From: Cercospora beticola
Lineage: Eukaryota > Ascomycota > Dothideomycetes > Mycosphaerellales > Mycosphaerellaceae
DNA: 64,000 nucleotides
Reading direction: 5' to 3'
Assembly (NCBI RefSeq): GCF_033473495.1
Contig: NC_088940.1
Span: forward strand, 868,001 to 932,000
Below are positions 6,954 to 30,571 of this stretch, piece after piece (the first letter of the stretch is position 1; each line of letters begins with the position of its first letter). The translations under genes were made by a program, and so were the position numbers. Under the pieces are notes generated by a model, which saw nothing but the letters and a program-made list of their open reading frames with translations, did no database searches and was not told the DNA's origin.

Positions 6954-9900
6954 CTAGACCTTCACCTTCATCAAGTCGCACGTACTAACCGCAGTGAGCT
7001 TCTGCACTTGCCCACCTAATTGCTTCTTGTCACACGCTCGATAATTCTCCTGTACCAAGAAGTTAGCCAAGCGCTCGATATAGAAGAACAACATGTCGCT
7101 ACAGCATAATGTCTCTTTCAGACCCAAACTCACTGTGACCTTCGGTTCAACCTTCACCCTCCCACCCGAAACCCCATTCGTCACAACCCCCCAAACCGCA
7201 AACGACAGATCCTGATTCCGATTCAAAGCACTTAACTTGGTCGTACTCCTCGGAATCAACGTAAAAGCCACCCTCGGCGGATCAATCTTCTGCGCCACAT
7301 GAACATTCCACTTCATATTATTCAACATACTCCCTCCTGGCCCATCATACCTAGCCATCAAATGCTTAGCATCATTACCCAGCAGAAACTCCACTTCGAT
7401 ACTGAAAATTTGTAACTTGTGCATTGTATCCTGGGGGATACGAGTGGGAGGTACAATACGGATGATGAGGTCGAGAGGGACGTTGAAGAGTTTGTGATTG
7501 GGAGGGTAGATTGGTACGTTATTTGTGGTGTTCGGAGCAGGATTCTTGGTGTAGCCGAGGACGAAGGCATCGCAGAGCCATTGGCTTAGAATGGGACTGC
7601 GGAGTTGAGCTGCGACGCCGTCTGTTTTCTCGGATTCGGGAAATTTGAAGTTGGCTTGGTCGTAGTCGCTCGGCATTCGTGTTGGGCGTTTGGACGGTGG
7701 GCCGGGAAGAGGTGGTGGTGCGACGATTTCGCTGGGTTCTAAGGGTGATTTGGGTTTGGGCCGAGGATCCTCGGGAGGTTCTGGTGCGGGAACAATTCTC
7801 CAAGTCGTTGTGTCGCTGTCAGCATCTGGCGCGAGCCGAATCTGGCGAGGTGTTTTGGTTGTATCAGGAGGTGCAGGTCTCTTGTCATCCGCTGCGGCTT
7901 CCGGAAGCTTGATGTTCATGACAGATATGAAAGAGTTGAGTATCACGGCAGTGACTGCAGATGACGGGACGTCGTCCTCGAAGTATTTGCTTTTCCCTTC
8001 TGCGTTGTTTGGTCGCTCCATTTGACTGTTCAATATATCAATACACGACTGAGCAAATGCAGGGAAGATCAGCATATTCGTCTTGTAGTCGAAGATCCTT
8101 TTCTGTTTCACAAAATCGACAGTGACTTCGTCGGCATTCTTCTGGAGCACAGGTCCGGCCGGTTTCCACTTGATGATTCCAACAGAAGTGTAGATCTCCT
8201 CACCATCGCCTAAATCCGAAGGATCCTTAGTATACACAGTACGATACTGCATCTGAACATAATCAGTAGTCGTACTCGTGCCAAGGCGAAAGCATTGCTG
8301 ATGAGGCGGCTGACAGATGGTGATATCTCTCCGCCTTGATCCATCTCCTTGATCTTTATTCCAGTGATTTTGACCAGGAGATCTGTCAAACAGACACAAT
8401 AGCGTGTCCTTCTCCAAACAATCAAGCCGAACAGTTTCCATTCTGTTTCCACCCATTTCCTCAGATGTTGGCCAAGGTGCATGAACCTCCAGATTCGGGA
8501 ACGTTTTGACGACTGCTGACCGTAAGAAAAATCCAAAAGTAGGAATCTGGGGCGTGTAATTCATGTTCCCTGTTCCCAGTGGAGCTGCAAAGTATCGATT
8601 GAGCTGTCTCTTGAACGCCTGCCGGACTGTATCGTCTTCTTGATCGAGATGATTGCCGATGCTCAGTGCACCATCGATGAAAGCGTCGAACCAGTTCGTG
8701 TCGATGTAGAAGAAGCGAATCGAGTCTTGCGGCAGATGACTTGGGTCGCTGGTCATGTAGTGTGCTGGGATGTTGTGTAGGCTAAGCTTGTCCAGTATCC
8801 AAGATTGTACCACCTGCCAATCAGGCGAGGAAGGAACATTGATCTCGTTGAAAGGTATGAAGACCTCGACTCCATCGTCCGTGGATGTAGTTGCGAGGGT
8901 AGCTGCAGGTATGGCCGCAGCGGCTATTCTGGTTGCCTCGTTCACAACCATATGCTGCAGAACAACATTTGCTTTTGCGGCTGCTTTAAGATCTCGGTCG
9001 GGAGGGAGGGGCTTGCCATCGTCGGAGGACACCCTCTCAATCACAACCTGAGGCTGAGGATTGACGAGCTTGTTCACTCTATTAGCCGTAGGTAGAGCAT
9101 TACCACCGGCATTGACATCTCCAATCGCAGACAAGGCGTCTATGCTCTTCGCCATTGTCGCAAGTGTCTGTGTTTTACTCTTCACATTCCCAGCGCCAGC
9201 AATCTGCTTCTTGGTCTCTCTGGTCGCAGTAGTTATAACTGCACTCCGCAACCGCACAAGAGATGCTGTAAAAGCTTGATCCGCGATGCCCAACGTACGT
9301 CCAAGCTGCCATGCTGCAGAGTATGTGATATCCATGATCCCAAGCTTGGGATCGAGGACCTGATAATCTGTTGAGAAATTGGATTGCAAAGGCCACCAGC
9401 CACCATCTTTCCGCGTTTGGATTGGTGGCACGAAAGTAGGCGAAAGTGGTCCACGGTACAGAGAGACTGTTTCTTCGCCAGTTTGCAGCAAGTATCGTTG
9501 TAGAGAATAGCCATCGAAGAGTCTAGCAGCAAGGCGGTAGTTCAGGGATGACTTCTGAGCTTCCGACGCATCGTCAAGGGTCTTCGCAATACTTTGTTTC
9601 GCAGCATTAATTTTCGGCATTTGTAGACCTGCAGCTTTTGCGATTGCGTTGTCTGGAGCTCGTAGCCAGCATTCAGCACCGTCCTGAATCGTGTGGCCAA
9701 TTCCACGCATGGTATCGACGAAGTTGACTGTGTCGGGGGGTAAACAAAGATAAGTCCAAGAGTGAAGAGAGATCATTGCAACCCATTTCGTTTGCGGTAA
9801 AGAGGTATCCAGAGGTAGGGTGAGGTTCTCTTCGATATCCATGATGGAGACCAGATGGACGATCACAGGCTTAGGAGCCGTAATATTGAGCGGTCCAGTG

Positions 9901-10988
9901 CGATGAGCGTGAACCACAGAGTACAACCCTTTGTCGGGTAGATCAAGACCAGCCATAGCAATCTGATTTACATTCCTGACATGCGATAAGTACTTGTACC
10001 GCGATAGATCCGGCTTTGTCGTAGTCCCAGGTGGGATCGATGGGCTATCACTCCCATCAGCGTTATAGCTGCAGACATGACTCTCAAATATGTCGCGCTT
10101 GACAAACACGACATTAACCTGTTCCTCTCGATCTATGTGCTCGATCGTATCGGAGTCCTGATGCGGAATAATCACTTTCGAAGGTCCTGATGTCTTCCAG
10201 CTCGGCCAGCCACCCATTTCCAGATACTCACCCATCGTCAATTTGACAGCGAACGTCGCCTTGTCTTGCTCACGGCCGTCGGGTGGAGGGCTACTGTGCG
10301 AAGGGATCTGCACAACGTCCGGAAAGAGACCGCCTTTACTCACTCCCTTCAACTCTGCATCTGACAACTTAATCTCGTCTTCAGCAAAAGTCCACAGAGC
10401 GACCCAAGGAACTTTGCTGCGAGAGCGCGTAGTCGTATCATGGTCAACCTTACTGTCAGCCTCGTCCTGGCTCGGAGACCCTTCATTCTCCCACGGAAAT
10501 TGTGGATCTTCAAATACCATATGCGGCAAAACATTGTTGTGATCCGCAAGCCCTTGAGGCGGATAAGTCTGATGGATAATGCCTGGTGGGAGATTCCATC
10601 GTGGTACGTTGACGTTGAACTGCTGTGTAGAGACAGGATTCGCGGTCTGTGTTGCAGTGAATTTGTCTTTGTCGTCCTTGGGCACTTTTGGGGCAGAGGG
10701 AAAGTCTGGATGATTTAATTTGTGGTCGACTTTGATCTCATATCTGCCACCCTGAAGACCTCTGCGAACTTGTCAGCAGGAATTCGCCTTGAAGTGACCG
10801 ATGCCATACGGTTCGTAGTACGAATACAACTGCGCATATCCAGGATCGAGCTCTTTGATAACATCAGGATCAACGATCTCAATGGGTGAGAAAGCAGGCA
10901 CTGGCGCCTGTCCTTGTTGATTTCTCTTGAAGTGCCTGAAGACTCTTGCTCTGGGCTTCGTAGTCGCTGCCATCGTTTTGGCATCCAA
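6954..10988 (-). CDS. Giant protein A of the central locus, 1328 aa, unknown function
   Basis: Exon 1 10988-10810 and exon 2 10761-6954, joined over a 48-nt intron (GTATGG...TTCGCAG with a CTGAC branch site); total length is divisible by three. Exon 1 ends in YSYYEP and exon 2 continues GLQGGRYEIKVDHK. No signal peptide or obvious membrane segment. Conserved-looking blocks: NVPRWNLPPGIIHQTYPPQG, VPWVALWTFAEDE, an ITYSAAWQLGRTLGIADQAF block after LYRGPLSPTFVPP, a Pro-rich linker at about residues 1060-1105, and a C-terminal beta-rich part (VEPKVTVSLGLKET). The YSAAWQLGR/YRGP style of block resembles large uncharacterised bacterial proteins as I remember them; this is unverified. It neighbours giant genes B and C, which share its size, lack of targeting signals and intron style. 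The splice donor is not certain: nearby alternatives exist. No function is assigned. Confidence 0.82.
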
Positions 10989-11360: not shown

Positions 11361-12396
11361 ATGGTAATCAGAAAGACGAGGATATCGAGCATTCTGCTAA
11401 CCCTGCTCGTACCCGTCATTTTGATCTGCGCCTTCTCTCTTTCCATAGCCGGCACCGCTGGAAAGAATTGGGCGCAGAGGATTGAAACTGACTTTGACAC
11501 CGGACAATGCATGGGTATGTCCGCCCCATGAATTGCGAGTATCGCTGTGCAAAAGCTCATCCCACGCAGGTATCAACCACAGAGGCCCATTCCAATACTG
11601 CGTTCTCAATCTGAAGAACGTCTCCTCCACCACAACCACTGACGAGAGCGCCACGCCAACGCCAACAGACAGTAGTGATGAGACCGCTGCAGAAGAAACT
11701 CCCACAGAAGGCGAAGAAACGACAAGCACCGAATCAGCAACCGAGAGCAGCACACCGACACCAGTGTGTCCTTTACCTCAAGCCGAATCGCGCTACGAGC
11801 AATTCTGCAACAGCACAACGCGCCCCGGCGGAGCATGCTCAGTCCGCGGTGTAGCCTCCCTCGCAACCCTAGGCCGCAACAGCGCAACAGGGGACTCCTC
11901 AACCTTCTGCCAGCAGCTCAAAATCTCGGGCTCTCTGCTGCTCGCCGGGTGTGCTCTGATCGGAATTGGCATGCTCGCATCTTTGATCCTCAGCGGTATA
12001 ACCTTACTCCAGATCTTCGGCAGATACAAGGCACCAGACGACACCTCTTCGCCTTCATTGGGTGCGGTGGCTGTCTTTACTAGCATCATCACGGGGTTGG
12101 GTTTCCTTGCAATGCTGTTTGGTACTGTGGTCGGCGCGAACGTTCTTGTCAATTTGCAGTTTCCTGCAGGCGATTGGTATACATCTGGGGACCTTGTCAA
12201 CAGCACTGCGGTAGGGCCTTGGATGCTTGGGAAGTCCGTCTCGCTTGCCACAGCGGGATGGGTATTGGCGGCTGTGGGTGCGAGTCTCGTGGGCAAGATC
12301 TGGTCAAGCCCTACTGCTCATTATCGTCGAGTCGGTCAGGATGATGTTGGTGCAGAGGTTGTGAGGCCCAGAGGCAAGCACGATCGTGAGGAATAG
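11361..12396 (+). CDS. Four-transmembrane membrane protein, SUR7/PalI-like topology
   Basis: Exons 11361-11514 and 11570-12396 with a 55-nt intron (GTATGT...CACGCAG); 326 aa. Start chosen at MVIRKTRISS, the first ATG before the first hydrophobic segment. Membrane segments by eye: residues ~9-32, ~164-190, ~205-230 and ~265-290. Between the first two lies a long extracellular-type loop rich in Ser/Thr/Glu (a probable O-glycosylated stalk) followed by six Cys, including CPLPQ, EQFC, GGACSV and TFCQQL. The arrangement (N-terminal helix, large Cys-containing loop, three more helices, short basic tail) resembles the fungal SUR7/PalI claudin-like group, but I do not see the diagnostic motif clearly. 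It sits inside the giant-gene locus, divergent from A and convergent with B (64 bp between the stops), so it could be functionally linked or a bystander. Confidence 0.8.
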
Positions 12397-12460: not shown

Positions 12461-15400
12461 TCATATTTTGCCATCCGAGATCGGCTTTTTCAGCTGCAGA
12501 AATCCTTCTATTGCAGTGTACGGGCCGCGCTCGAACCTTGGTCTGTTGTCCAGCGATGCGATGGGGAAGGGATTCCAATGTTGCGATTTCGGTTGTCTTG
12601 CTGTCGCAGAGGCAGGTTCGCTGTCATCAGGTGCCACAGCGTAGGGCTGCAGCCAATTCCAATTTGCAGAAGCGAGTGCTGGCAAAGGAATACCGCTGAA
12701 TAGAGCAGCTTGCGCTTGAGCCAAAGGATCGGACGTGTTTATTGGGGCAGCAGCAGCCGATTGTGCGATCTCGAGCAAATTTGATCCTGTGCTCAGATTG
12801 TTCTTCTCATCGTATCGCTTCTGTAGATCGGGTGTCGTTATGATGAGCGGACCCATGCGGAAGAAGGCTGTCATGCGCTGTAGAGCAGATTGTAAGGTCC
12901 AAGGCGGCAATTGCAGTGTCGTAATTGGCAGGATGCCAGAATACGCGTGGATCTTTGCAAATGGGTCAAGAAGTGCTCCAAACATTGACACCTGGTTGTA
13001 GTGGTCCACCATGAGTTTGCTGATCTCAATTCCCACTGTGTTCGGGTCTCTTTCGTCGAGGCGATACGACCTGGACGAGAGATGGTAGGGCGTCAGCTCA
13101 ATATACTGGTCACGATCAAGTGCGGTTGTGTTCTTGCCCGCAGGATAGTAGGTGATCATGGTGGTGAGATCAAGCTCTTGCCCTGGCGCTGTTTTCGCGT
13201 CGCCGATCTGCTTGAACAAACAGACCAGGCCGTCATATGCTCGATCACGGTCGCCAATCTTGACAGTAAAGTTATAGCTCTTGGCGCCTCTCTTCACAGA
13301 CGTCAGTGGAATATCCGGAGGTGCATTGCTGAGCGTTGACTGATTCTTCAGTGGTGGACTGGCCAGCTCAAGAGCAAATCCAATGTTCGTGAGCGCTAAA
13401 GGCCGCCCGACGATGGCATTGAGATACTCTGCGTATTGGTTGGGTGTGTGAGGAAGCGCTGCCAGTGCCTTGTTGACCATACCGAAGAAAGAGCGCAGAT
13501 AATCAGGGCGTGAAAGCTGCTTCATGAGCGCATCTAGTTGCGGGTAGCCTTGCGAGCGGAAAACTTTTGGATCTGTCGGCTTCGCTCTTACGTCCGAGGG
13601 AGGCTCAAAAGGTTGCCATTCGATGCTCTGAGATGCCTTGTTCGGCCCACCCAGGCGCACCTCGCGATAGAATTGCCCGTCTGGCAAGAAGATCTGAACG
13701 CCGTTCTCTGCGTAATTGAGCACTACGAATCCCCAAAGTGGATCATCCCACTCGTTGGCTGTACGCCACATCTTCAGCGATTGATCGAAAAGCATGAAGT
13801 TGCCGTTAAGCCTTGCATCCTGATTGATGGTGGGTGGATATTGAGCATATTGACAACCTGCCGGGTCTTCTGTAATCACGTTCTCCCGATTGATATCACC
13901 GCCAAGGTCTTGAGGATGGAAGTACTCGCTGAGGTTGGGGTACAAGGGCGGTATATTATTCGCTGGCCGCGGATCGATCGCAGAAATTGCTTGTCCAAAT
14001 TTGTCGATGATACTGTCCGCGTCGTCAGCTAAATCACTCAGAACTTGTTCACGTCACTCACTTCAGCTTCGTAAATCGAAATTGTCCATGAGTCACTGGC
14101 TTCATGGGAGCCACGCCAGCTTCAAACCGCACGAAATCAGAAAAGGGCGTCTTGTCGAGCTCAGAGCCCATCAATGTAATGGCCTCGGTATTGAGATTCA
14201 CCTCAGGCCTCTCTGCGGCTTTGAGAGAGGTCAAGTTGGTTGGAGATCCCGGGTCTCGAACAGTCGGTTTGATATGAGTACCTTGCAGCTTGGTGGTAAG
14301 GTGGTCCATGAATCCCGTCATAGGCGCACTCAAGAGCTGAATCTGCTCGACCTTGCTGAGGAAATCCGGAACCGGGTCAAAAGTCACGGCTCCCGTTTGT
14401 GGATCGAGTTTTGGCTTCAAGCTATCTGGTAGCATGTCCGGATTAGTGGACGATAGCAACTGTTCAACACTGACACGGAGCGAGAAGCCTGGTTGTGGAA
14501 GGATGAGGACTCGGCCATCAACCTCACGCTCATCTCGAACACGAGTCGACCCGGATCTGACGAGTTCTGCCACTGTTCGATCCGGCTTGATACCATAGCG
14601 CACACGGGGGTTCTCGTTCGGTTTGAAAGGAATCTTGACTTGGTTGAAATCCCAAGCATCCCATGGAATATGGCAGTAGCTTATCTCCCACTCCAGGAAG
14701 AGTGGAAACCATGCTTGTGTGTTGTTCCACTGATCACGGCTGTCGTGATAGTGAGGCAAGACGACATCTGTCGAAGCTTTCCCTCTGACAGTAGATGGAA
14801 TCTCCTTAACACCGGAGCTATCACTAGGTCGCAAATTGAAAAATTCTCGAATTAACGAAGCTGCTGCGTCTTGAAGTTCTCTATTGGCGACGCCTTGTTT
14901 GTTGATGAAGCAAGGTAGGACGTTGTTATTGATGACATCGCCTAGACCGCCCCAGCCGGCTGGTGTCTGAGGAGGCAGACTGGGAACCTGCACTTGTGAT
15001 GCAAATCGGGTCGGCAGAAGTGATAGCCAGTCTACTGGCCACGGGTTCGAGAGGCCAGGAACTAACAAGCAAGGATCTCTTTGAGTGTAGAACCGCTTGC
15101 GAGCGCCGCGCTCAACGATGTATGATGGCTTGCTAGAATCGGATCCAGGTCGAACAAACGGCTTCAAGTATGTCTCAATAACGCTCCCAAGGCTTTCGAC
15201 TCGTGCTTTCATGGATTTGACAATCTTTGTTTGAGCATCAACGAGCTCTGCGGGTTTCTTTGATTGGTCGGCTGGGCTTTCTCGAATTGTGGTCCTGGTA
15301 TCCTGCCAGGATTTGTCGCTCACGTACTTCCACCACAACGCAAACAAGTTCCACTGCTCACTCTGCATCTCACGCTTTGCCGAGTCTAATGCAGCCTGGA

Positions 15401-17008
15401 CATCGTTGAGTCTGGCTAAAGACTGCTTCTGTGATGACGTAGGCTCGAACAATTGCTGCGTGCGTGTCGGGAGTGCGGTCGAGCCTGTGTTGGAAGGGGT
15501 GGCAGCAGAAAAGTTCCAGAAAGATCCGCTATCTTGATATGGCTCGAAGTTGTTTGCACTCAACATATCTTGCGCTTCTTGCTGTGAGTCAATGTCGTCT
15601 TCCTGTTTCAAAAGCAGTGTTTCCAAATGCCGCAAATCGGACTCTGTTTTATCGAGAGCAGTATCTCGGGCACCACCTTGCTTCAGAGAGTCATTGTAAG
15701 CACGTACATATGATAGTACGCTATCCAAAGGCGTCGTGCCAACTGTGACCGGATGTGATTTTGGGTTGGCGAACTTCTTGGCTGCATGAGCAGATGGTAA
15801 GGTAAGTGTATTGTTGTCCTGGCTGCTGTAATTGACTGTGTACATGGCCCCATGACAAAGAACTCTGCCGCTAGAGGGCCTGTTCAGGAAGTCGTCACTC
15901 TTGGCGACTGGCATTGAGAGGAAGTTGTTGCTCAGTAGTTCTGACATGGTCACGGATCGAGGGTTGGTAAGAAAGTCTTGATTTTCTTCGCCATGCCAAC
16001 CTACGCGGATGGAGGTCACGTCAGCAAAATGAATGCGGTCATAACAGGTCGACTTCTGGTGACCGGTGACTTACCAAGAACATAATAGCTTGCAGTCGCC
16101 TTTGTGAGATAATCTCGTTTCCCATCTTGCACGTACTCGAAATTGTCAAGTATGCTAAAGACATTGGGACAGTGCGGCGCATAGTCAGCAAAGAGAGGAT
16201 TCGCCGTGTTGAGCGTGCCCAGTGGCACGAAGCGCTGTGCATCTGGCGCGCTTTCCTTCCATGAGCCGGGCGTCAGAAGTGTCTTCTGGCCAATGTAAAT
16301 TTCGGCTTGTGCTTCGATGGAGCCAGCGTCGCCCTTCAAATAAGGCGCACATTCGACCTCAACGTCGACATTACGATCAAAATCCTGCACGTTGCGGACT
16401 CTGTTGGACTCTACAATCCAGGCAGTGATGTCCCTAATCCGGCCTGCAGGCTCGGCTCCTGGGTGTAGTCTTCGAATCACAAGCCACCGATCGGGCGCAG
16501 TCTTGAAGACTGGTGCTGAGTCTGTTTGTGCAGAAGAGCCCGCCCCTGTCACCATTGTCAGAATGCATATATAAGTTCGGTGCAACGTATGCCGGTCGTC
16601 GAGCCCAGAAATCGAATTACCGCAGGGTGAAAGAGCGCAGGCAGCAGGGATGAAAGGAACACAATCGACGTACGATAGCATCGAGGCAACATCCAATGCA
16701 GATACACGCCTTGCCTTCGCTTCCTAGGCTCGCCAGTGCCCAGATCAGTCAATCTGGGATTAAGAGATGGTGGCGAAGCATGAGAGATGTCGTGGTATGG
16801 CAGGACATCATTCTGAATCACCGCGGCATCTAGGCGAAGGAAAGTGTAGTTTGGCTGGGAGATTGGTGCAACGCTTGCATTATCAGGAAAGCCCTTGCTG
16901 TGCCAGTGTCAGTCGCTGTCTACTGACTGAATTTTGGCGATCGTACCTCAACCCATTCAGCACGAAGGCATCGAGCTTGACTGGCACGTAAACCACTGGT
17001 TTTGCCAT
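12461..17008 (-). CDS. Giant protein B of the central locus, 1415 aa, unknown function
   Basis: Five exons: 17008-16947, 16897-16674, 16545-16075, 16000-14062 and 14012-12461 (introns of 49, 128, 74 and 49 nt; total 4248 nt, divisible by three). Two apparent separate frames (14062-16000 and 12461-14012) are one gene: splicing GTGAGT at 14061 to ...GGACAG gives ...FRFTKLNIIDKFGQ, reading smoothly. N-terminus MAKPVVYVPVKLDAFVLNG, then DVLPYHDISHASPPSLNPR and GVYLHWMLPRCYR; the middle holds coiled-coil-prone helices (~residues 350-480) and a Trp-rich block (AWFPLFLEWEISYCHIPWDAW); the C-terminal third has ILPITTLQLPPWTLQSAL. An in-frame TAG just upstream of ATG 17008 supports the start. No signal peptide or membrane segment is seen. 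I cannot name a domain. It is divergent from gene C and close to gene A, and the three probably act together (inference from shared size and clustering). Confidence 0.87.
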
Positions 17009-17638: not shown

Positions 17639-20600
17639 ATGGAGACGTCCAAGCCCAATGGCGATATAGGCCAGCAGCCGATGCAGATTGACCCCAAGAC
17701 AGAGCCCGAACAGCCCAAGAAGGAGGCAGAGACGCCGAAAGATCAAGACTCGAAGCCCAAGGCCAGGACTCCTGAACAGATCGCAGCACTCTCCAGTTTG
17801 ACTAACGCTCAGATCTACTCGGCCAACAGCAAGCTGAACCTATCCGTGGATGTCTATCATGTCAATGTTGAGGTAATTGGCTCATCAATGGTGTCATCAG
17901 GCTCGCGCTTATCATGAACAGGGAAAAGGAGATGCCGCAATTCATTTGCTCATCGTTCAGGATCGAGCGTTCTTGAAACCATTTGTCCTCCGGGCAGTCC
18001 TCATTGATGGTGGTACGGCTTCAGGCGCGGAGAGGATCAAAGCTGTCCTGAGAGACAAAATCGGGAAATTGTACGACTTTGATAGAACCCAAGGTGGCCG
18101 GACTGCCATTGGACAGCAGCTGGAATGGCCTCCCTTCGACAGCATGGTCGTCACGCATTGGGATGATGACCACTATTCTGGTGTCATGGAACTCGTGCAC
18201 GCTGATCTTTCGAACCAGTATGCCAGCATTGCTCGACCGGCACCAATTCCCAACGATGCCGCGGCAGATGTCAAGGCGTCACATGCTGCAGCAGAAAAGG
18301 CGTATCAAGACAAGATTGACAACCTCCGAACATCATATCTCTCACCCTTCATGAAGTACGCACTACCATCACAGGCTACGAACACAGCAGACCAGGGTTC
18401 CAATACAGGCAACAAAGGGAATGTTCAAGATAACAAAGGTATACTCACAACTTGACGGAATGTAAGATTTAGGGCAACGAGCGCTTACGTGGATTTCAGC
18501 AACACCGAATTCGCGGGCGGAGAGAGCATTGACGATACTGTACTGCCCATACTTCGGCAACAACAGAGTAAAGCAGTTCTCGCTGAGAATCCGGTAATTG
18601 AAGCTGAGCAATCATTGACAGGTCTGGGGAGGCAAATTCCCCTCGCAATGGTTCCAGACGTCCAAAGTACAAAAGTCTGGAGGTACGAACCCGGGGCCGG
18701 ACGAGAACGGAATTGGTGATGGCAGCAGCTTTCTCGCCCGGCGCGGCAGAGTATGGCCCTTCTACGACGATGGGCAAGGCACGAGGGCGAACGACGGTCC
18801 TAACCTTCCCACACGATTTCTCGACTGGAACATGAGGCCTGAAGGGGCAGGCAGAGGCGCGATAGACCCGACCGAATGGGCCAAGAAGATCTGCAAAATC
18901 CGTGCGGGAAATCAATACATCCTGGGCACTAATCTGTTCACCGGCTGGCGCCTGGCCGAGGTCCAATGCCATCAAGTCAAGAACCCGATGCAGCTAGCTC
19001 TAGCACACACATCCGCAGACAGCTTCAAAGAAGGGACCAACAAGGCTGATCCGATGCTCAATACAACCGCTGCCGCCGTTGTCAATGGTCTACCCAAACA
19101 TGAGCCAAACCAAGCTCAACCGGTGCTGCTTATTGTTGGAGCCAACGGTGACTATTGCGGCCAATCTTTGTCTAATGCATTAACTGCTGCAAGCGACACA
19201 GACATGAAGGACGAGGAACCAGCAAACGAACAAGAAGATGGCATCACTGATATGGACAGATTCTCGAACTGGGCTGCACAAGAACCCAAGGCTGACACAA
19301 CAGACAACTTGGCGAAAGCGCAAGTCCAAGACCTGCGTGGGCAGCCGAAAGACAAAGGTGCCAACATGATGATCCGTCCGAACGACAAGCCCATCGGTAC
19401 CTCGTTCTCCGATGTACAGCGGATCAGATAGGTCCTGACTATGCCAGCAGATCCTTTCAAATTTAGGATGAAAGTTGTTGATAAAGCCACCCCGATGGGT
19501 GGAAGCGAGATCACCAACGCAGCATCGGTAAACAATTCGTCACCCTTTACAAAGCTACATCACCAACAACTCGTAGATCATCACCTTGCTAGTGTGGACC
19601 GATGGACATATGTCACATTACTCCGCCGGTGATGCTCAGGTATGTGTGCCCACTGGTGCGCTGCAATCCAGACTAATATAGAGCAAGTGGGAAATCGAGA
19701 ACAAGATCGTTGCTTGGATTCAGGCTGGCCAGAATCCATTCCAATGCATTCGAGCCGTGAAGCTCTCGCATCATGGAGGTACGCACCAACGATAATGGAA
19801 CTCACCAATGAAACACCGTAACGCTGATCTGTTCTAGCCACCTACTCCACTCCTCTTGACCTGGTACACAAGTTCAGACCAAGAAGCATCATTGTCTCGG
19901 CCTCAGGCAGAGACTACGGTCATCCTGTATACGAGTTGCTTTTTTACTTGAATCGCTGGTTTAGGACTTCGAACCGTATCGTCCCGAGCGGAAACGCTCC
20001 TGGAAAGTGAGTTATCCAAAGGTCGTATACGCTATATCAGCTAAATAGGCATCAGATTGTTTCACTCTCTATCATATCCCTACTATCTGTAAGTGCAGCT
20101 GATAACTCGTCGAAATCCTCTGTTGCGCACGCTTACCTCTGCTGAACATTCAGTGCAAAGAGGGAAACGCAAAATGGAGCCGAGGATACTACCAAGACCA
20201 AATCTGGGGAAGCCGAAGGAGATGTAACGAACACTGGCGAGTCATCGCAGACGAAGGGCGCCGAAAATGGAGACGCAGAGACAACCCAGCAGACCGGAAC
20301 CAAGAAAGTGGAGACAATTCGCCAGGCCGTCGCGCCACAATATCGAGCCTTCGGGAAGAACAACTTCTTCCATGAGATGCTTGCAGAGAAAGTTACGGGC
20401 GTCAGGGCAGCTTACATAAAACGTCTCAGGCTCATCGAAGACCGACTGCCCCAGCAAAGCCGATCACTGGATGGATTTGCTGCTCTGGAGACAACCATTA
20501 AAGCGAAGGTGGCCGCCAAAGAATGGTTCCTGGTGGATGGCGAGATCAGCAAGCAGAACTTCACACTCAATACCGTGGAGAGTGGAATGCCTCTGATTGC

Positions 20601-23600
20601 ACCATGGGAGCCCAAGCTTTGCACAACTGTGGCAACGGTTGATACAGCACTTGGTACCTTACAGAGCGCAAAAGATGAACTGCAATACGTCAAAGTCCAT
20701 TGTCGTTCGTGGAGTACCGCTCGACGCGCCCAAGATTTAGATCAGCGGCTAGATGGATATACCAGTTTTCAAACATCCGAGGCTCCACTGATCCTGGCAT
20801 CGGACAGCTCAGCGGCATCACGTCCGGCTGGCAAGAAGAGAAAAGCAATCGATAAAAGTGCAACGCAAGAAGAAAGAAAAACGGCCGAATTCGAGCAGAT
20901 GCAAGCTGCTCTGGTCAAGAGAAGGCTAGTCCGTCCTCTCAGAAAGTCTGTGGAGGCAAGCTACAATGTTCAAATCAAAGTTGCCGCGCAGGAAATTGAG
21001 GAGATCAGACACGGGCCATCCAGGAAACGCAAAGGAGGTCAAGACACGAGTGACGATAAAAAGCGTCCGAAGCAGAAAGAGGAAGCGGCACTTGAGGAGG
21101 ATGGCGAGGCAGGAAGGGGTAAGTCATTGCAACTGTCTACACTGCCGCTACTCGTGCTAATCAGGATCAGACACCGACCTACGTGCATTTGTGCTCCCCC
21201 ACGCCACAGCTGCAACTGTACCCGACACCGCACTTTCGGCTACAGGCGACAGTCATGTACAGGCTTCAGTTGCTAGCGTGACAGTTGCGACAAATGCCGT
21301 GGAAAGCTCTGCAGTGGTTGGCGAACCTCCAAGTGAACCTGCTGCCGACGCAGACGAACCGGAGTCTTGGAACCTTGTCTCTATCTCCTTGGTCACAGAT
21401 ACCGACACCTCATCATGGAAAAATTTAGTGCCCATCTCAGCTGCCACCGGTGGTTACGAAGCTTTACTCGAATGGATCGTGGAGCCGGTCTTCACAGTCG
21501 ACGCTACGGGGAAGGCTGACTCCGCCAGTGGTTTCAGATCATCTCTATTCAGCGCGCTCGATATCGATGACGAAGCTTCGACACTCACAGCTTTGTTCGC
21601 CCCCGATAGCAAGATACAGGATGGTCTATGGACTGGTTTGAGCCTGAATTGTAAGCAAGCCGGGCATGATCTGGAGTTCTCAACGACATCCGCGAGCTCT
21701 TACTTTGGTACATCGTTCGAATACTTGCCTGATTACGAAGTGCCAGCTAGTGGGATAATACCACAACATCAGACACTGATTTTGGGACTCGCCAACAATC
21801 CGACAGAGAAATGGAACTTCACAAATCTGCTGACTTGGCTCGGCATTTTGAACGAATCAGGAACTACAGATGCTATATCTGATCTAGAAACTGCAATCGG
21901 CACTGGCGTAACTTTCGACCTCAAGCGAGGAGCGATCTGGTTCTGCTCTGCGGAAGATTTCGGCGTTGTTCAACGGATGGAGTGGCAATTGGACGCTCCA
22001 GCTATCAAGAAGTGGTTGGACAAAGGCTTCATGGAACTAGGATCAGAAATCACGCTCGAGGATCCGTTAATTACAGGCCGCAAGGTCACTCGATCTTCAG
22101 AGACTTCCTCTGGAACTCTGTTCATCGATGCGTACGAGTTCATGGTTGCACTCAAACTCAAGAGGCCTGTCGGCAATACTGTTCAAACACTGACCACGAA
22201 CATCCAAGTCGATCTTGGAAATGGAGGCATGGCGATTGCAATCAGTTTGCTTCCGTCTTCTGGCACCCTCGGCGATATGTTGGGCTGGATTGCTGGTCTG
22301 GTCGGAGCAGATGATCGTGGCGGTATAACCGATATCGTGAACTCCATTCCCGGACTGGATAAGCTACAGATGAAGAGAGTTACATTGAGAGCCTCGAAGC
22401 GCGGCGTAGAAAGCTTTTCTATCGACCTGGAATGGACCCCTGGATGGAAGACTACAGCTACCGCCACGGAGGAAGCAGTTGAGGTACCAGTTCTGGTAAG
22501 TTGATGTTATATTGATGCTTTTGTCGGGTCGTAGTGACCCATGCTGATGCTCAAATAGCTCTCGTACAAATGGACGAAAGCCATGAAGCCGGACCCGCAT
22601 TCGATCGTGGCCCAAGTCTGGTTCGAGCCTTCATTCGTACGAGATCCAGAAAGTGCTCCGACTGAACTTTCGCCTTTCTATGAGCCTTCGAAGGTTATAC
22701 GTCCAACATTACCGGCACCGTCAAGCGTGAGTCTGCAATCCCTCATGCCAGGCGATTATGCTCTTCCCAAAGAACTGGATCTCGAGATCGTGGAATTAGT
22801 CCTATCTTTGGAAGGCAAAAAAGTCTCGTTCTCTGGTATGCTGGTTGCAAGCGAACAAGAGGATGACGATGCCGCCGACGATGGTTTAGGCATTCGCCTC
22901 GAGCAAGTGACCGTCAGAGCGAGCTACGAGCGCGGAGATTCCCCGCCAGGTCCATCTACTGGCGCTGCGAAGCCCAAGGGCGAAGCTTCTTACGAGCTAT
23001 TCTTGGAAGGTGTCATCGATATCTCGGTGCCTAGCAATAATCTCAAGACTGACGAGGAGCCGGACGCGAACCAGACACTGCTTGTTTTGGGTATCGATCT
23101 TCAGGCAAAGGGGAAGAGTAAGCTCTGCCACCTTCATGGTTCTGTGGACAATCTCAATATGGGTGCACTCGGACGCTTCTTTCCTGCTGAGGATGAGGAA
23201 ATCATCACGGACATACTTGGCAATATTACCTTAGAGTCTCTAGACATCGACTACTTGTATGGAAGTAATGGTGCGGCAAGCGAATTTGACATTGGGGCGA
23301 TACTTCGTATCGGACCTTGCGAGCTGGAAGTTGACTTCCATCGCGACACGGAGTCTTGGCGTTTCGAAGCTTTACTGCAAGCAGCGGAAGGAACTGATGC
23401 CACTGTTGGTGCACTATTGGAGGATATCCTTGATGATGACACTGCTGCGTTTGACAGCGTGCCATCCTTCATCAAGGATATGTCGCTTTCTGGAGGAAAT
23501 GCGTACGTCTCATTGAAATTGGCTTCACTCGATGCGGCCTCAGTCACACCCGAGACTCCTCCTCCAGGTCCGAACGAGCTGAAGCCTGGAAAGAAGTACC

Positions 23601-26600
23601 TGGCGATGTACCTGACCATGCGGCTCCCAGTTCCTGGTGGAGCAGGCGTAGAGCTGTCCTTCATTCAACTCACTGAGAAGACAGTGGTGCCTGCAGGCCA
23701 ACCACGTCCTCTGCCTGCTCCTGGAGCGCTGCGCAACAAGACAAAACGCATCATCCGCGTGTCCGTGGTGGATTTGCCTTGGCATAAGATTCCTCAACCA
23801 CCTGTCGTGGGCAAGATCGAGCCACTTTTCGATGGACTGCACTTCCTTTGGGTACAAGATCCCGTTGAAAACAAAGGTATCACACGACAGGAGTTGGCAA
23901 TACTCGCCGAGGTCAGCGTTATTCAATTCAAGGAAACGGCCCGGCAGCCTAAACCAATCGACATTGTACTAACTGCAGGAATGCACTTCTGCATCGCAGA
24001 TGCGTCAAAACTGCTACTTGACTACGGCTTCAACAAGCCCAAAGACGTTACTCAAAGATCAAGAAATGTAGTCAGCAAATCCGACAAAGCTCCACTACCG
24101 ACTGGTGCTCCAGTGAATACTGGAAGTGGTGAGGGCACAGCTACTAGCGATCTGGCGAAGAAAGTTGGCCCAATCGCTGTTTCAAACGTGGGCATTCGGT
24201 TCGAAGATAATGTACTCTTGCTTTTCTTTGACATTGCTGCTCACCTGGGGCCAGTACAAGTCATGCTTCTAGGATTCGGCATCGGCGTGAACCTCAAAAC
24301 GCTCAACTTGCAATCGTTGGCATCCATCGAGCCACAATTTCAGCTCAAGGGGATGGGAATATCGTTCCAACAGCCACCTGTCGGCATTGCTGGTATGTTC
24401 AAGGATGCATCGACTTCCACTCAGCGTCTCTACATGGGTGGCGTTGCTGTCTCCTTCAAGCCGTATAGTTTCATGGCAGTTGGCGAGTATGGTGAGATTG
24501 CCCGGCCTGGTTCAGTTGGAGTGACAGATACGTACAAGACGTTGTTCATTTTCGCCAAACTGGAAGGACCTCTGATCGAGCTGGAGTTTGTGACCATCGG
24601 TGGCATCACCTTGGGCTTCGGATACAACTCGAACCTGCGATTTCCGACCATCGCACAGGTACCATCATTCCCATTCATCGCCAATACAGTCGGAGGCGAA
24701 AATTCAGATCCTTTGACTGTCATGAACCAGCTCGTCGGCCAAGCAGATTCCTATGTCAAGCCCCAAGAGGACTCCTTCTGGATAGCAGCTGGACTACAAG
24801 CTAAAGCCTTACAAGTGCTGGACGTATCAGCTGTGGTCATCCTCGAATTCAACCCATACGTCAACCTCGGAATCTTCGCAAAAGCCATTGCCCAAATGCC
24901 ACCTGCACCAACACCACGCATTGCCTGCTTCGTCTACGTCGAACTCGGAATCATGTGCACAGTCGATTTCCACGCAGGAGCTTTCCGTGTTGAAGCACAA
25001 CTCTCGCCGAACTCGTTCGTCATACATCCTAGCTGTCATCTCACAGGCGGCTTTGCTCTATGCTATTGGTTCGGATCTTCGCCGTACTCTGGAGATTTCG
25101 TTTTCACAGTCGGCGGCTACCATCCCATGTACAAACCCCCACCACATTATCCCGTGCCACCTCGACTCGGCATATCATGGCAAATGGGACCAGTTTCGAT
25201 TCGCGGTGAAGCATACTTCGCCATCACTCCACAGTGCTGCATGGGCGGCGGCAGACTAGAAGTCGTATTCAGCGCTGGTCTGCTATGCGCATACTTGACA
25301 GCTTACGCTGACTTCTTGATCGTGTACAATCCATTCTACTTCATGGGAGAGATGGGCGTATGCGTCGGCGTTCGGTTCACGATGGATATCCTCTTCGTCA
25401 CCATCCACATCTCCGTCGAGCTCAACGCACGGCTGCGCCTCAGAGGACCCGAGTTTGGTGGGTCTGCTTATGTGGACTTTTGGGTGTTTGGGTTTGAGAT
25501 TTCATTCGGTGCAGAGGCCAAACGACCAGGAAAGAAGACGCTGGATGAATTCGTGGAACTTTTGCTCCAAGTCCCGGATGCCGATTCTGTTGCTCGTACG
25601 GCCATTGCTGATGGACGAGCGACTACGGGGCAAATCGACAAGCTTCATGTGCTCTCGGTTGAAGAGGGCAGATATACTAACAAGGCTAAAGATGCCACAT
25701 CGGATCCTGGTGCAATTGTAAGTGTGGTTCTCGATTCTCTCTTCCCTTGGTCATCCCTTGAAAGTTGGCATCGCAAGTGTTTATCACTCATGAAAGGCAC
25801 ATGCTGATTCCTGTCAACCATGTGTAGTGGGAAGTAAAGCGAGCTGGTTTCCAATTTCGCGTACAGAGTCGGCTTCCATTGCAAACGATCACACAGCCAG
25901 CCGCCAGCGACACCGAACCAGATCTTGTGCTACTGGAGGAGAACCCATTCTACGCCAAACCGATGCAGCTGACCACACAGCTCGTCTCCACCATGACAGT
26001 CTCAATTGCAAAAATCGAAAAGAACGGCAACAATGAAGTGGCCACTTTCCTCCCTTTGCCAGTCATAAAGAGCACGCCGAAAGCACTATGGGATGAATGT
26101 AAATTCCACCCTCAAATCACACCAGATGTTGCAGCCGGAATACTGACCATTATGTTGCAGATAAACCCTCCACAGACCCAACATCCGGCCAAACCAAACC
26201 CTCCTCCCTCCTATCCAACACCGATCCAGCAACAATGGACCTCCTCATGGGTGCAACATTCTGTGCTCCATTCCCTTTCCGCTCCTACGACAAGATCCTC
26301 AAATACAACGTTCTGAGATCTTCAAGCTTAGACGTTTTCACTCTCGCAGATGTGGATGCCGCTGGCAAACCATTGCGTCCAACACTCCCATCAACCAATC
26401 AATTCGTCTCCGAACAATGGCGATCTGCGCAGCCAGTAGAAGGTGCGATGCAGTGGACTTTTGTGCAGAGTAAATGGAAGCAGGCAGTTGGGCAGAAAGT
26501 GGATGTTGCAGAAGGGGAGAAATCGGTGGGAGTCGTGGAAAGCGTTATTAGTACGTGGCAGGATGCTATGGGTTGGAACAATGTCGAAAATGGTCTGAAG

Positions 26601-26705
26601 AATGATTTGAAGGGTGATGGAGATGATGATCGGGATCAGGTGTTGCTGTGGAAGCAGTTTGATCATTTGTATATGGCTGCGCCGATGATTGGGGTTGGAG
26701 CATAG
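17639..26705 (+). CDS. Giant protein C: metallo-beta-lactamase-fold hydrolase fused to a DUF6603-like region, 2767 aa
   Basis: Fourteen exons: 17639-17872, 17922-18438, 18500-18567, 18622-19396, 19451-19527, 19577-19639, 19682-19778, 19838-20006, 20056-20088, 20154-21118, 21165-22495, 22559-25717, 25828-26098, 26161-26705; introns 42-110 nt, total 8304 nt, divisible by three. Residues ~1-78 are a polar, Lys/Glu-rich leader. Residues ~79-650 are a metallo-beta-lactamase fold of the ComEC/Rec2-like style: VLIDGG, the metal motif THWDDDHYSG (~157-165), LYCPYFGNN, YSAGD (Asp ~576) and KLSHHG (His ~608-609). All expected ligands are present, so it is probably an active metal hydrolase; substrate unknown. 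Residues ~700-1000 are a basic linker with nuclear-signal-like clusters (KKRK, RKRKGG). From ~1000 to the end is a long beta-rich region; ~1700-2450 (FVTIGGITLGFGY, FRVEAQLSPNSFVIHPS, FFMGEMGVCVG) matches my memory of DUF6603. A split into two genes is possible, but every frame joins. Confidence 0.88.
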
Positions 26706-26852
26706 TACATTGGATGTTTCGGGAGAGATCTCGTGTTAGATTTAGGATTGTTTTCACATTGTCACTTCCACGTGGGAACATTCTCCAGCTTGATCGATTC
26801 GTGATTCTAAATGTAGTGACGTTGCACGTGGTTTCGTTCTCCTGAGAGGAAT

Positions 26853-28466
26853 ATGGCCGTTGCTGCAGACATGGTCCACCAAATCAGACTTCAAACGGTC
26901 TCAACGGCGAGAACAATTTTATCTCTACCCCTCTCTGATACAGCCATGCTATCCCAAGCGCGCGCCTGCCACACTTATTGCACGCCTGTTTGTGCACAAT
27001 TTACAACTCAAACAATGGCTTTCCACTTCATCTATCGACAAACTTTCGCCACATTGCGCCGCCTTCGCCGAGCACTACACCCGTCACCATGCTCAACCAA
27101 CGGGAATGAGCCGCAATCACTACGATCCACAGCCTGGCTCGATGGACTTCGAGGACTCGCCGCTCTATCAGTCTTCATCCTGCACCACGAGGAATATGGG
27201 CACCACATGTCGAAATACATCATAATCGAAGATCCCTGGGGTCTCAATGGACAATACCACATTGCAACATTTCCATTCATCCGACTCATCTTCAGCGGCG
27301 GGATCTTTGCCGTTCCGATATTCTTCATTATATCAGGCTATGTCCTCGCACATAAGCCCCTGCAGCTAGTCCAGCAGCAGGATTTTAGCGTCCTTGCGAA
27401 GTCGACCGGTTCAAGTCTTTTTCGTCGATGGGGAAGACTTTTCTTGCCGGTCTATGTTTCGACGTTTATCTGGATGTCTAGTTGGTATGCTCTGGGATTC
27501 CGCAGTTTGGCGAAAGGATCGCCGGAGTTGCTGGATTCGTGGACGGCGGAATTGAGAAGGTGGTGGGATTTGCACAACGCTGGGGATATTACTGGATACA
27601 ATCCTCATTTGTGGACGATCCCGGAGGAGTTTTGGGGCTCGGTTTTCATATACTGCACGATCCTTGCGACGTCTCGTTTCTCGAAGGAAGCACGATTGGT
27701 AACAGAGGTAGCCATGTGCGCCTACCGTCTCTACCTCGCGAAGGTCGATGCGCTGTTCTTCGTAGGCCTCATCTTCTGCGACATCTCACTGCTTTCTGAA
27801 GCTAAGCAGCTGCCGAACCTGCTGAAGCGAGTCAGACCGCGTCACCAAGGCATGTGGTACATCTTCCTCGTGCTGGGATTGTACATGTCAGCGCTCGGGC
27901 ATGGCTTCGCGGGCGAGCCTCAACATTTCAGCGCGTATCCAGGCTGGTCGGCTCTGCACCTTCTCCTTCCACCGAACTACCCAGACTTCAAATTCTGGTA
28001 TCGCTTCTGGGGCTCGACTCTGGCAGTCACATCCATACCACAAATTTCGAGTTGCAAGCACATACTCGAGATGCGATTTCCACAGTATCTTGGCCGGGTA
28101 TCTTACAGCTTCTATCTTATCCACGGCCCTTTGCTTTGGAGTGTGGGAGTCCGAATGTATGCTGCGTGTGGGCTGGCAAGACGCTATCGCCAGATCAGGA
28201 CCTGTGACAACTGGATGAAGCTTCCCAATACTGGGCCGCTCGGAATGGAGGTCAGATGGCTCTTGCCAATGCTCTTCATGCTAATTTTGACATTGGCAGT
28301 GGCAGATCTTTTCACGCAGCTGGTGGACGAGCCGAGTATCAAGTTCGTCCAATGGGCTTTTTCTGAAGGGGTGGATGGGACACCGAAGAATGCTTATGCT
28401 CTGCAACAGGTCGATCCAGAGTCGACGCCGGAGGGCAATCCGTGCGATAACGTTCTCATCGTGTAG
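26853..28466 (+). CDS. Acyltransferase family 3 membrane protein
   Basis: Single exon, 537 aa from the first ATG; in-frame ATGs at 26943-ish and 27015 (MAFHFIYRQTF) are also possible starts. The core begins WLDGLRGLAALSVFILHHEE, the hallmark of the acyltransferase-3 family (PF01757), with the conserved Arg and His of the first membrane segment. Further hydrophobic helices follow (GIFAVPIFFIISGYVLA, RRWGRLFLPVYVSTFIW, ALFFVGLIFCDISLL and LGRVSYSFYLIHGPLLW near the C-terminus), about ten in all. These enzymes transfer acyl groups to extracellular or luminal sugars, lipids or secondary metabolites; the substrate here cannot be told. It starts about 150 bp after giant gene C on the same strand, so it may be a locus member or simply the next gene. 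Confidence 0.85.
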   Translation: MAVAADMVHQIRLQTVSTARTILSLPLSDTAMLSQARACHTYCTPVCAQFTTQTMAFHFIYRQTFATLRRLRRALHPSPCSTNGNEPQSLRSTAWLDGLRGLAALSVFILHHEEYGHHMSKYIIIEDPWGLNGQYHIATFPFIRLIFSGGIFAVPIFFIISGYVLAHKPLQLVQQQDFSVLAKSTGSSLFRRWGRLFLPVYVSTFIWMSSWYALGFRSLAKGSPELLDSWTAELRRWWDLHNAGDITGYNPHLWTIPEEFWGSVFIYCTILATSRFSKEARLVTEVAMCAYRLYLAKVDALFFVGLIFCDISLLSEAKQLPNLLKRVRPRHQGMWYIFLVLGLYMSALGHGFAGEPQHFSAYPGWSALHLLLPPNYPDFKFWYRFWGSTLAVTSIPQISSCKHILEMRFPQYLGRVSYSFYLIHGPLLWSVGVRMYAACGLARRYRQIRTCDNWMKLPNTGPLGMEVRWLLPMLFMLILTLAVADLFTQLVDEPSIKFVQWAFSEGVDGTPKNAYALQQVDPESTPEGNPCDNVLIV

Positions 28467-28547: not shown

Positions 28548-28805
28548 GTTTCATATGAATGGGCGGACCGGGCTCCGTTCACGTTCCCGCCGCTCACCAA
28601 TGCCGATGACATTCTCCCTCTCTCTTCGCCTTGTGCCATTGCCGCCTCGAGTCTGCAATTTCGGCAGATGGAGGACGATTCCCATTGCTTCTGCCGGATC
28701 ATCAATACCTCGCCGCAAGTACATGTTTGTCGGTGTTGCCATTGGTGGTTTGTGCGATGGCGTCAGAAAGCTTCACAGCGTAGATCGGCAAAAGCGTGGG
28801 AAATT

Positions 28806-28812
28806 TGAGTCA
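28806..28812 (+). promoter_or_regulatory. Second TGAGTCA site upstream of MET2
   Basis: A second perfect TGAGTCA lies 114 bp before the MET2 start codon, a typical distance for a functional upstream activating site. Two exact copies in one short promoter strengthen the case for amino-acid starvation control. Confidence 0.55.
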
Positions 28813-28925
28813 ATGGAGTGATTCTTTCGCTGCCCGCCTACATCTTTCGTTGTCTCCCTCCCCTCCCTCTCGTCTTCTCTACACATCACGGCACAGCCTA
28901 TGCCATATACACCAGACCTTCAACG

Positions 28926-30571
28926 ATGACGACTGCCCCCAATGGATTGGTTCACGCCTCCGACCACAAGACGCACCAATTCAGTACATTCCACTTCTTA
29001 CGACCCCGCCTTCCACCTGCCTGACTGACTTCTGCTGTGTAGAGCGCATCAAGCCTGCTGACCAGACCGAAAATCCCTTTGTGAAACTGATCCCGAATCA
29101 AGACATCGCCATAATCCCGTCCTTTACCCTCGAATCCGGCGCAACGCTCCACAATGTCCCAGTCGCTTACAAAACCTACGGCAACCTCTCGCCCGAAGCC
29201 GACAATGCCATGGTCATCTGCCACGCCCTGACTGGCTCCGCCGATGTCCAAGATTGGTGGGGACCTCTTCTCGGAGGCCCGGGCCCAAATGGCGAGGAAA
29301 GCAGAGCCTTCGACATGTCTCGCTTCTTCATCGTCTGCTTCAATAGCTTGGGAAGTCCCTATGGAAGTGCTAGCCCGGTGACAGCGAAGAATGGCGTGAA
29401 AGAGGAAGGGCATTATGGCCCGGAGTTCCCGCTCACGACAATAAGAGATGATGTGAATCTGTTCAAAATTCTGCTCGATGACCTCGGCGTGAAGAAGATC
29501 GCGACAGTCATTGGAGGAAGTATGGGCGGAATGCTCGTGCTGGAATTTGCCTACTTTGGCAAAGACTATGTGAGGAGCATTATACCGATCGCGACATCTG
29601 CTCGATACAGTGCGTGGGGTATCAGCTGGGGTGAGGCGCAGAGGCAGAGTATTTACTCGGATCCGAAGTACGATGATGGTTACTATCAATTCGGCGATCC
29701 ACCAGCCAGTGGTCTCGGAGCTGCGAGAATGAGCGCACTTCTCACCTATCGCTCTCGCGATAGCTTTGAGAGCCGATTTGGCAGAAAGCACCCAGATCCC
29801 AGGCAAGCCAAAGGTGGCATCAATACCATGCAGCGACCAGGAACTCCAGTGAGAGACGAGGGAGGCGAAGAGCACTTCTACACCCACAACGAGGGACATC
29901 GGAACGCCGGAAGTCCAAGACAGCACCCGAGCAGACGACACTCCCGAGCACAGATTCCCGATGGCGACCTGACAGCAAGCGTTGATTCGCTCCAGCCACA
30001 GGAGCAGTTCGTGACAGTCCAAGATCCGCAATTCTCCGGCGACAAAGAGATCCCAGTCGAAGTAAAACCAAGCAGAAGAAAAGTGCCAACATACTATTCT
30101 GCTCAGTCCTACTTGCGGTACCAGGGCGAGAAATTCATCAAGCGATTCGATGCTAATTGCTACATCGCCATCACGAGAAAGCTCGACACGCACGATGTGG
30201 CTCGTGGCAGAACCGACACCACTGGCTCTCCCACCGAGGAAGAAGTTCGAGCTGCATTGGCTATGATTCAGCAGCCAACTCTTGTCCTTGGTATCCAGAG
30301 CGATGGCCTCTTCACCTACCAGGAGCAAGAGCAACTTGCTGCTGCTATTCCGAACGCAGAGCTCAAGAACATCGATAGTCCCGATGGGCATGATGCTTTC
30401 TTGCTGGAATTCAAGCAGGTCAATGGCTTTTTGAAGGAGTTTATGAAACGCGAATTGCCAGATATCATGGCACGAGAGCCTATCAACTGGCCACCGAAGG
30501 AAGAGGAGAAGGCAGAGGCAAAGGCTAGTGTATTTGGAGAAGCTGAGGCCGAGGATATCACGGCTTGGTAG
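28926..30571 (+). CDS. MET2: Homoserine O-acetyltransferase
   Basis: Exons 28926-28983 and 29043-30571, intron 59 nt (GTACAT...GTGTAG, CTGAC branch site); 528 aa. The enzyme makes O-acetyl-homoserine from homoserine and acetyl-CoA, the committed step of methionine synthesis. It is an alpha/beta-hydrolase: VAYKTYGNLSPEADNAMVICHALTG, the oxyanion segment and the nucleophile elbow GGSMGGM carrying the catalytic Ser, a conserved RSIIPIATSARYSAW segment, and near the C-terminus LGIQSDGLF and SPDGHDAFL supplying the Asp and His of the triad. A polar insert of roughly 110 residues (rich in Arg, Pro, Gln; after FGRKHPDPRQ) separates the two catalytic parts, as in other fungal MET2 proteins I know. 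A large antisense frame is a shadow. Two TGAGTCA sites lie upstream. Confidence 0.94.

Follow-up and report, generated by a model that had tools for sequence, protein, structure and literature searches.

Proteins of the metallo-beta-lactamase (MBL) superfamily share a set of metal ligands that follow one another in a fixed order: HxDxDH (or HxHxDH), GD, HH and a terminal H. Several antiphage systems carry such an enzyme; in Lamassu, the MBL protein LmuA is partnered by the SMC-like protein LmuB. Passages in PMC12799240 describe the MBLs of Hachiman and AVAST as DNase proenzymes: a pair of insertions obstructs the active site, and cleavage of these by a partner protease yields the active form. 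The MBL domain of ComEC is presented in PMC8579336 as an Mn2+-dependent phosphodiesterase and nuclease.

The antiphage MBL nucleases (LmuA, Avs1a of AVAST type 1, the RT-associated MBL and HamM of Hachiman) are the nearest profile relatives of one half of a very long protein encoded in the 64-kb stretch of Cercospora beticola DNA analysed here (‘the window’), in which an MBL domain is fused to a region of DUF6603 type. The fusion shares with them the HxDxDH, GD and HHG motifs and, like HamM and Avs1a as portrayed in passages of PMC12799240, carries a long extra stretch inside the MBL fold; a further likeness lies in bacteria, where the MBL gene sits directly upstream of that for a large partner. 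In contrast to those systems, no protease, ATPase or RT was recognised among the scanned representatives of the genes beside DUF6603, the partners being DUF6603 and two further families that we call c1 and c2, and in the fungus the MBL is covalently fused. Among 13 flanking ORFs scanned, a part of those in the window, there was no Pfam match to the protease or STAND ATPase partners of Avs1a, and no SMC-like gene. The C-terminal MBL of ComEC is matched in PDB sequence searches by the profile of the fusion and by a bacterial MBL (locus L005), but the fusion has no matched channel part (19.3 bits under TIGR00361, cut-off 190 bits) and hundreds of extra residues within the fold.

The fusion gene and its halves

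The fusion gene spans 17639..26705 on the plus strand (14 exons, 2765 aa), with exons 1-5 at 17639-17872, 17922-18438, 18500-18567, 18622-19396 and 19451-19527; exons 6-10 at 19577-19639, 19688-19778, 19838-20006, 20056-20088 and 20154-21118; and exons 11-14 at 21165-22495, 22559-25717, 25828-26098 and 26161-26705. An ATG at 17639 opens a frame whose single stop is the terminal TAG ending at 26705, and all 13 introns (46-110 nt) are of GT-AG type. The model aligns with a C. kikuchii protein (P0121, 2765 aa) over residues 1-2765, with 0 gaps and 92.9% identity; several exon junctions were set using this relative, such that the two are not wholly independent, each junction being a GT-AG site present in the window itself. 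Chance cannot explain a gap-free match over the full length, and on sequence grounds we regard the existence of the MBL-DUF6603 fusion as close to certain. A previous, sequence-only reading of this DNA had joined 14 exons in frame into a single gene, which is borne out by the introns and by the relative; its single long fusion protein stands, its length of 2767 residues does not.

That two adjacent genes were wrongly joined into one model is extremely unlikely. With intron 8 retained, a TGA at 20008-20010 would close the frame just past exon 8; against this, the gap-free 2765-aa relative and 12 more records bear both halves, and the 33-nt exon 9 encodes a YPY[YW]L-like stretch, closing the MBL, that the aligned fungal fusions share in slightly varied form. 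Exons 8-11 are in frame, and the stop and new start near 20-21 kb by which the sequence-only reading would have recognised two genes are not seen in the sequence. A split into two genes was rejected on these grounds.

The MBL domain, of ComEC type, occupies 17846..20088 on the plus strand (approximately residues 70-676; limits set by eye from alignments), and its motifs, THWDDDH at residue 156, SAGD at 573, SHHG at 605 and GHP at 636, follow the superfamily order; the first three had already been picked out as those of a metal hydrolase. Across 13 aligned fusions H157, D159, D161, H162, H606, H607 and H637 (P0121 numbering) are invariant and G575 and D576 (same numbering) are conserved at 90% or more, with one fusion, P0125, lacking the GD motif as annotated. 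The spacing from HxDxDH to GD is 411 residues in the window protein and 153-442 in the 12 other fusions that have both motifs; in bacterial MBLs beside DUF6603 it is 103 (L005), 280 (L047) and 286 (L059), and a fourth (L071), whose motif reads HxHxDH, was excluded from the comparison.

Pfam Lactamase_B reaches 20.8 bits in exon 2 of the window, below its cut-off of 22.7, because the introns and the long insert break up the domain; among the four full-length relatives scanned, P0127 (31.1) and P0129 (23.4) pass, and P0121 (15.9) and P0125 (18.0) fail. In PADLOC, LmuA is the top family for the MBL of the three proteins scanned (4.3e-12, 1.6e-14 and 1.1e-11), followed by the RT-associated MBL and Avs1a; the LmuA match in P0121 (4.3e-12) spans part of the fold. 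The NCBIfam Avs1a model gives 43.1, 39.9 and 26.8 bits in three fusion proteins. With P0121 at 43.1 bits against a cut-off of 420 for Avs1a (NF041809), and likewise below that of ComEC_Rec2 (TIGR00361; values above), the MBL half resembles both families and by these cut-offs belongs to neither. The best PDB sequence-profile matches are 9ic4, a ‘Competence protein’ (2.6e-9), and then ComEC (1.2e-8).

A linker exon (20154..21118, plus strand) joins the halves and carries K/R-rich, NLS-like patches at residues ~902, 965 and 978, in keeping with the ‘basic linker’ of the sequence-only reading. Basic patches of this kind (4 of 5 K/R) occur in all 14 fusions, sitting in the linker in 12 of them by eye, vs 4 of 20 unfused proteins, a raw count uncorrected for kinship and protein length in which 1 of the 20 unfused rows comes from a plant-named record; such patches would fit nuclear targeting of the fusions. 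A hydropathy scan found no hydrophobic N-terminus in the fusion, which makes its export through a signal peptide unlikely.

The DUF6603-type region (21165..26705, plus strand; ~1770 aa) matches PF20248 at 1.1e-152 and 512 bits (509.6 in a second scan; cut-off 27) with a core at 24155-25645, the single match in the whole 36-Mb, 10-contig genome from which the window comes, and none of 14 control genomes has a match. An AlphaFold2 model of exon 12 (1053 aa, 72 sequences; mean pLDDT 79.2, pTM 0.59) consists predominantly of long strands with short turns between them. Most of the DUF6603 match falls within residues 531-990 of the model, where the pLDDT is at least 81 in 42 of 46 ten-residue blocks; over the final part of the match (residues 991-1029) values drop to 42-61. 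The sequence-only reading was right to see a DUF6603 protein joined to an MBL hydrolase, and its scaffold role for the C-terminus would be plausible. Searched against the PDB, the DUF6603 sequence profile had no match. Profile searches, which the sequence-only reading had proposed as a check on both halves, return a strong match for DUF6603 and LmuA-, Avs1a- and ComEC-type matches for the MBL.

That reading had also considered the architecture unusual for a fungus, a view that finds no support: 13 further fusions were present among 6409 candidate proteins, in a search confined to 0.55-1.75 times the length of the window protein. By record name, 12 of the 13 are fungal, from Cercospora (2), Septoria, Pseudocercospora, a Xylariales, an Aspergillus, a Naviculisporaceae, Fusarium (3), Lophiostoma and Dactylonectria, with record P0129 as the last; no entry bears the name of C. 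beticola, but since the database is clustered at 90% identity, the C. beticola fusion may itself sit in the P0121 cluster. All 13 carry a precomputed PF20248 annotation and the HxDxDH and HHG motifs. Many fungal DUF6603 proteins (~1400-1800 aa) have no MBL; they share the same region from the linker on, differ in the absence of the MBL half, and in several cases show hints of linkage to c1 (a contig of equal size or a near locus tag). The Pfam family, which the fusion matches over nearly its full length, is defined with no function and without the MBL fusion or the gene context described below. DUF6603/PF20248 is not mentioned in the open PMC literature (bioRxiv and most subscription papers fall outside this scope), in line with the earlier remark that no function had been described.

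A cassette shared by bacteria and fungi

Pattern matches to DUF6603 in prokaryotic genome contigs were confirmed in 8 of 39 cases, and PF20248 scored above cut-off in 13 of 345 genomes in one phylum sample and 11 of 346 in another; as these searches drew largely on the same genomes, the tallies are kept separate. Among 72,556 plasmid records 11 have a match, three of them being the same S. clavuligerus plasmid, and 5 of the 11 were read for context. We examined 36 prokaryotic loci with their flanks (L002, L003, L005-L009 and L045-L073), leaving out L004, a copy of L003, and G110, with a sub-threshold match of 19 bits. Recurring neighbour families (c-numbers) were obtained by clustering the ORFs of these loci, and their profiles were run on six frames with E up to 1e-4.

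In all 36 loci, a gene of the c1/c3 family directly follows DUF6603 on the same strand. Type A loci (22 of 36) have c1, and c2 is present in every one, on the upstream side in 4; type B loci (14 of 36) have c3, a remote relative of c1 (hhalign 97.9%, E 6e-13), with c4 in 11, while in the other 3 the place where c4 would lie is past the limit of the available sequence. The ORFs from which the profiles were made come from these same loci, 5 plasmid records excluded, and those 5 (including Paenibacillus and the archaeon Natrinema) all agree with the cassette order. The representatives of c1-c5 and c7 that were scanned have just two matches to Pfam families of known role: CBM_2 in the c1 of L003 (26.4 bits, barely over the cut-off of 24) and a sub-threshold Peptidase_S74 in the c5 of L005 (3e-4, 21.4 bits; cut-off 22), a protein that also has a phrog_1980 tail-fibre match (1.6e-9). 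Against the PDB the c1 profile gave chance-level matches only.

With a profile made from the MBL halves of the fungal fusions (E up to 1e-4), matches occur in 4 of the 36 loci (L005, L047 and L059 of Balneolaceae, and L071 of the S. clavuligerus plasmid), all of type A, each with the MBL directly upstream of DUF6603 on the same strand; the L005 pair of ORFs has an 11-nt overlap. The sequence-only reading had asked whether the halves are adjacent but separate in bacteria; in these four loci they are.

The sequence-only reading missed the partners of the fusion, just beside it on the minus strand. The c1 homologue (6957..10973, minus strand; 1323 aa) is CB0940_08236 of C. beticola, with 100% identity to P0137 over residues 1-1323; the bacterial c1 HMM matches its ORF at 6954-10772 (minus) with 9.6e-90 and 298 bits, the single c1 match in the genome. 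The c2 homologue, an ‘LHW’ protein of 1415 aa in 5 exons (12461..17008, minus strand), was found with the bacterial c2 HMM, and its five-exon model scores 1.4e-143 and 470 bits, having been chosen under that same HMM as the best scorer of 14 open combinations; independently of any splice model, the HMM matches four minus-strand ORFs at 12461-16908, with exon-wise scores of 177, 160 and 64.5 bits. Genes for c2 and the fusion are divergent, their start codons 630 bp apart. Profiles of c3, c4, c5 and c7 have no match in the window. Between c1 and c2 lies an ORF (11449-12396, plus strand) that by eye resembles a membrane protein, without a Pfam match.

Linkage appears to extend to other fungi. At least 15 of 120 listed c1 homologues have a longest contig exactly equal in size to that of a DUF6603 homologue (133 listed), with 9 of the contigs shorter than 160 kb, and c1 and DUF6603 bear near locus tags in Xylariales No.14919 (088590/088570), Naviculisporaceae PSN 640 (012446/012448) and A. 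tanneri (008797/008793). Taking membership to mean c1 and c2 linked to DUF6603, the fungal window belongs with the bacterial loci, and we consider the existence of a DUF6603-c1-c2 cassette close to certain. By gene content, the fusion is the MBL-carrying form of a conserved DUF6603, c1 and c2 cassette of bacteria and fungi, and a related form, with c3 and c4, was found by the same comparisons in bacteria and an archaeon. With c1 and c2 beside the fungal fusion as well as in bacterial operons, a bacterial operon would seem to persist as a fungal gene cluster. Phrase searches of the open PMC literature returned nothing on the cassette, and it is in this sense that we call it undescribed.

Origin and possible function

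A careful tree of DUF6603 was built on 48 rows, omitting every metagenomic row (19), the type-B group and long branches among the bacteria (13 of 29 rows), P0129 among the fused rows and 5 fungal rows without the fusion. Here the fungal rows form one clade relative to the bacterial (100/100), in which a fused group, P0131-P0133, branches first (other side 81/87, not strong) and 4 fused/unfused changes are required over 32 fungal rows. A quick tree of all 86 rows gives a fungal and metagenomic clade (99) and 3 such changes over 38 rows; among the rows counted as fungal, P0097 belongs to a record that bears the name of the tree Carpinus. For c1, we combined 22 bacterial rows with 46 of the 120 homologues listed; one row was too gappy, leaving 67. 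The careful tree, built on 48 of these after removal of 15 fungal rows and 4 long branches of bacteria, unites the 30 fungal rows in a single clade (100/100) that groups with L045 and L047 (98/92), the chytrid Spizellomyces branching first, followed by a basidiomycete and the ascomycetes (93/87). L047 is an MBL-bearing locus. The DUF6603 tree does not pick out L045 and L047 as nearest to fungi. Read most simply, the trees suggest that a bacterial operon was transferred once, long ago, and was then inherited for the most part vertically, with losses along the way and with the MBL either fused or lost; they are midpoint-rooted for drawing only, and are also compatible with transfer in the opposite direction. 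A phage origin was rejected, as DUF6603 has no match in 50,697 phage records and none of 43 pattern matches in viral contigs was confirmed; for a role in defence, this absence is neutral.

Synthesising these findings, we tentatively favour a model in which the MBL would be a restrained DNase on an all-beta DUF6603 scaffold, within an intracellular conflict or quality-control cassette; this reading stems from the resemblance of the MBL to antiphage nucleases and ComEC. The MBL would act as a metal-dependent nuclease of the ComEC/LmuA/Avs1a kind, with the long insert between HxDxDH and GD holding it inactive, as in the gated antiphage MBL nucleases, and the beta-rich DUF6603 region tethering it. 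Together with c1 and c2, DUF6603 may form a large intracellular assembly that positions or releases the nuclease, and the MBL would be an optional effector, which in fungi may have been fused and given NLS-like patches. An earlier suggestion that the hydrolase acts on a nucleotide substrate comes close to this nucleic-acid reading.

We place the nuclease model no higher than tentative because the c1-c5 and c7 representatives scanned showed no recognisable protease, ATPase or known sensor, whereas the published gated MBL nucleases depend on a protease, because the MBL is optional, and in view of the tail-fibre-type domains in genes of two bacterial cassettes, the hydrophobic N-terminal stretch of c2 and the acyltransferase and alpha/beta hydrolase genes that flank the fusion. 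A protease turned up only as a subtilase gene flanking two loci of type B, the type in which no MBL was found. MBLs were not found in 32 of the 36 prokaryotic loci and are missing from many fungal DUF6603 proteins, and so cannot provide the core function of the cassette. The same absence weighs against the suggestion in the sequence-only reading that the hydrolase processes or activates the attached DUF6603 region, an idea that the covalent fusion alone might favour; MBL-fold enzymes, moreover, hydrolyse phosphodiesters, esters and lactams rather than acting as proteases. Such processing in cis gained no backing from our analysis, and we consider it very improbable.

Two further accounts would move the cassette away from DNA. 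In a metabolic one, which we judge rather unlikely, the MBL would hydrolyse a small molecule, lipid or ester, and the DUF6603 strands would bind or transfer a hydrophobic ligand, as part of a catabolic or tailoring cluster. MBL folds do hydrolyse many substrates, an acyltransferase (26820-28463) and an alpha/beta hydrolase (28784-30568) adjoin the fusion, and the fungal DUF6603 core is hydrophobic (up to 1.84 over a 19-residue window); yet the closest profile families of the MBL act on DNA, the scanned c1-c5 and c7 representatives match no acyltransferase or hydrolase family (other neighbours being partly scanned), and two bacterial DUF6603 proteins are somewhat less hydrophobic (1.41 and 1.61). 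Less likely again is a surface or adhesive role, with DUF6603, c1, c2 and c5 assembling into something large and fibre-tipped outside the cell or on its surface, to which the MBL would be incidental. The tail-fibre matches in the c5 of L005, a Tail Collar domain (4.6e-10) encoded immediately upstream of the L055 DUF6603, the CBM_2 in the c1 of L003 and the hydrophobic N-terminal stretch of c2 proteins (up to 2.35 in L003 and 1.59 in the window) all speak for it, but the fusion lacks a hydrophobic N-terminus and has NLS-like patches, and the c5 profile is without a match in the fungal window.

Extending the favoured nuclease model, we speculate, as a doubtful proposition, that DUF6603, c1 and c2 could constitute an undescribed intracellular machine of bacteria and fungi, related to one in an archaeon, with swappable effectors in the slot upstream of DUF6603; early fungi would have acquired it once from bacteria as an entire operon and retained it as a gene cluster, and in some of them it would be a nucleus-directed, self-restrained DNase serving immunity or programmed cell death. 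Whichever account proves right, a set of very large proteins without functional annotation spans several bacterial phyla, has a relative in an archaeon and, in its three-gene version, is still linked in fungi; linkage over such distances usually reflects joint function, making the cassette a ready target, with a nuclease-like part that can be tested in vitro and partners that are now named. It may also represent another route by which bacterial conflict systems have entered eukaryotes.

Variation around prokaryotic DUF6603 genes

The gene slot upstream of DUF6603 varies among the loci. In L045 it holds a gene (458-2455) with a match to DUF4135 (9.3e-19), which we take to be a domain of lanthionine synthetases. 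The subtilase-type family, c14, lies beside DUF6603 at L049:11920-14241 and L051:11900-14224, and a scan of the L049 copy alone gave a Peptidase_S8 match (2.1e-43); a protease in this position would matter for proteolytic activation. On a Streptomyces plasmid (L070:1074-6130), a CATRA conflict-system gene and a CHAT-domain gene are annotated ~5-9 kb from DUF6603. One Streptomyces genome (L003, L057 and L058) has five DUF6603 copies, four of them mirrored near both chromosome ends. Finally, two loci (L048:2751-12422 and L061:3592-13293) encode DUF6603 proteins of more than 3200 aa, with ~2100 N-terminal residues that have no Pfam match at E up to 0.01.
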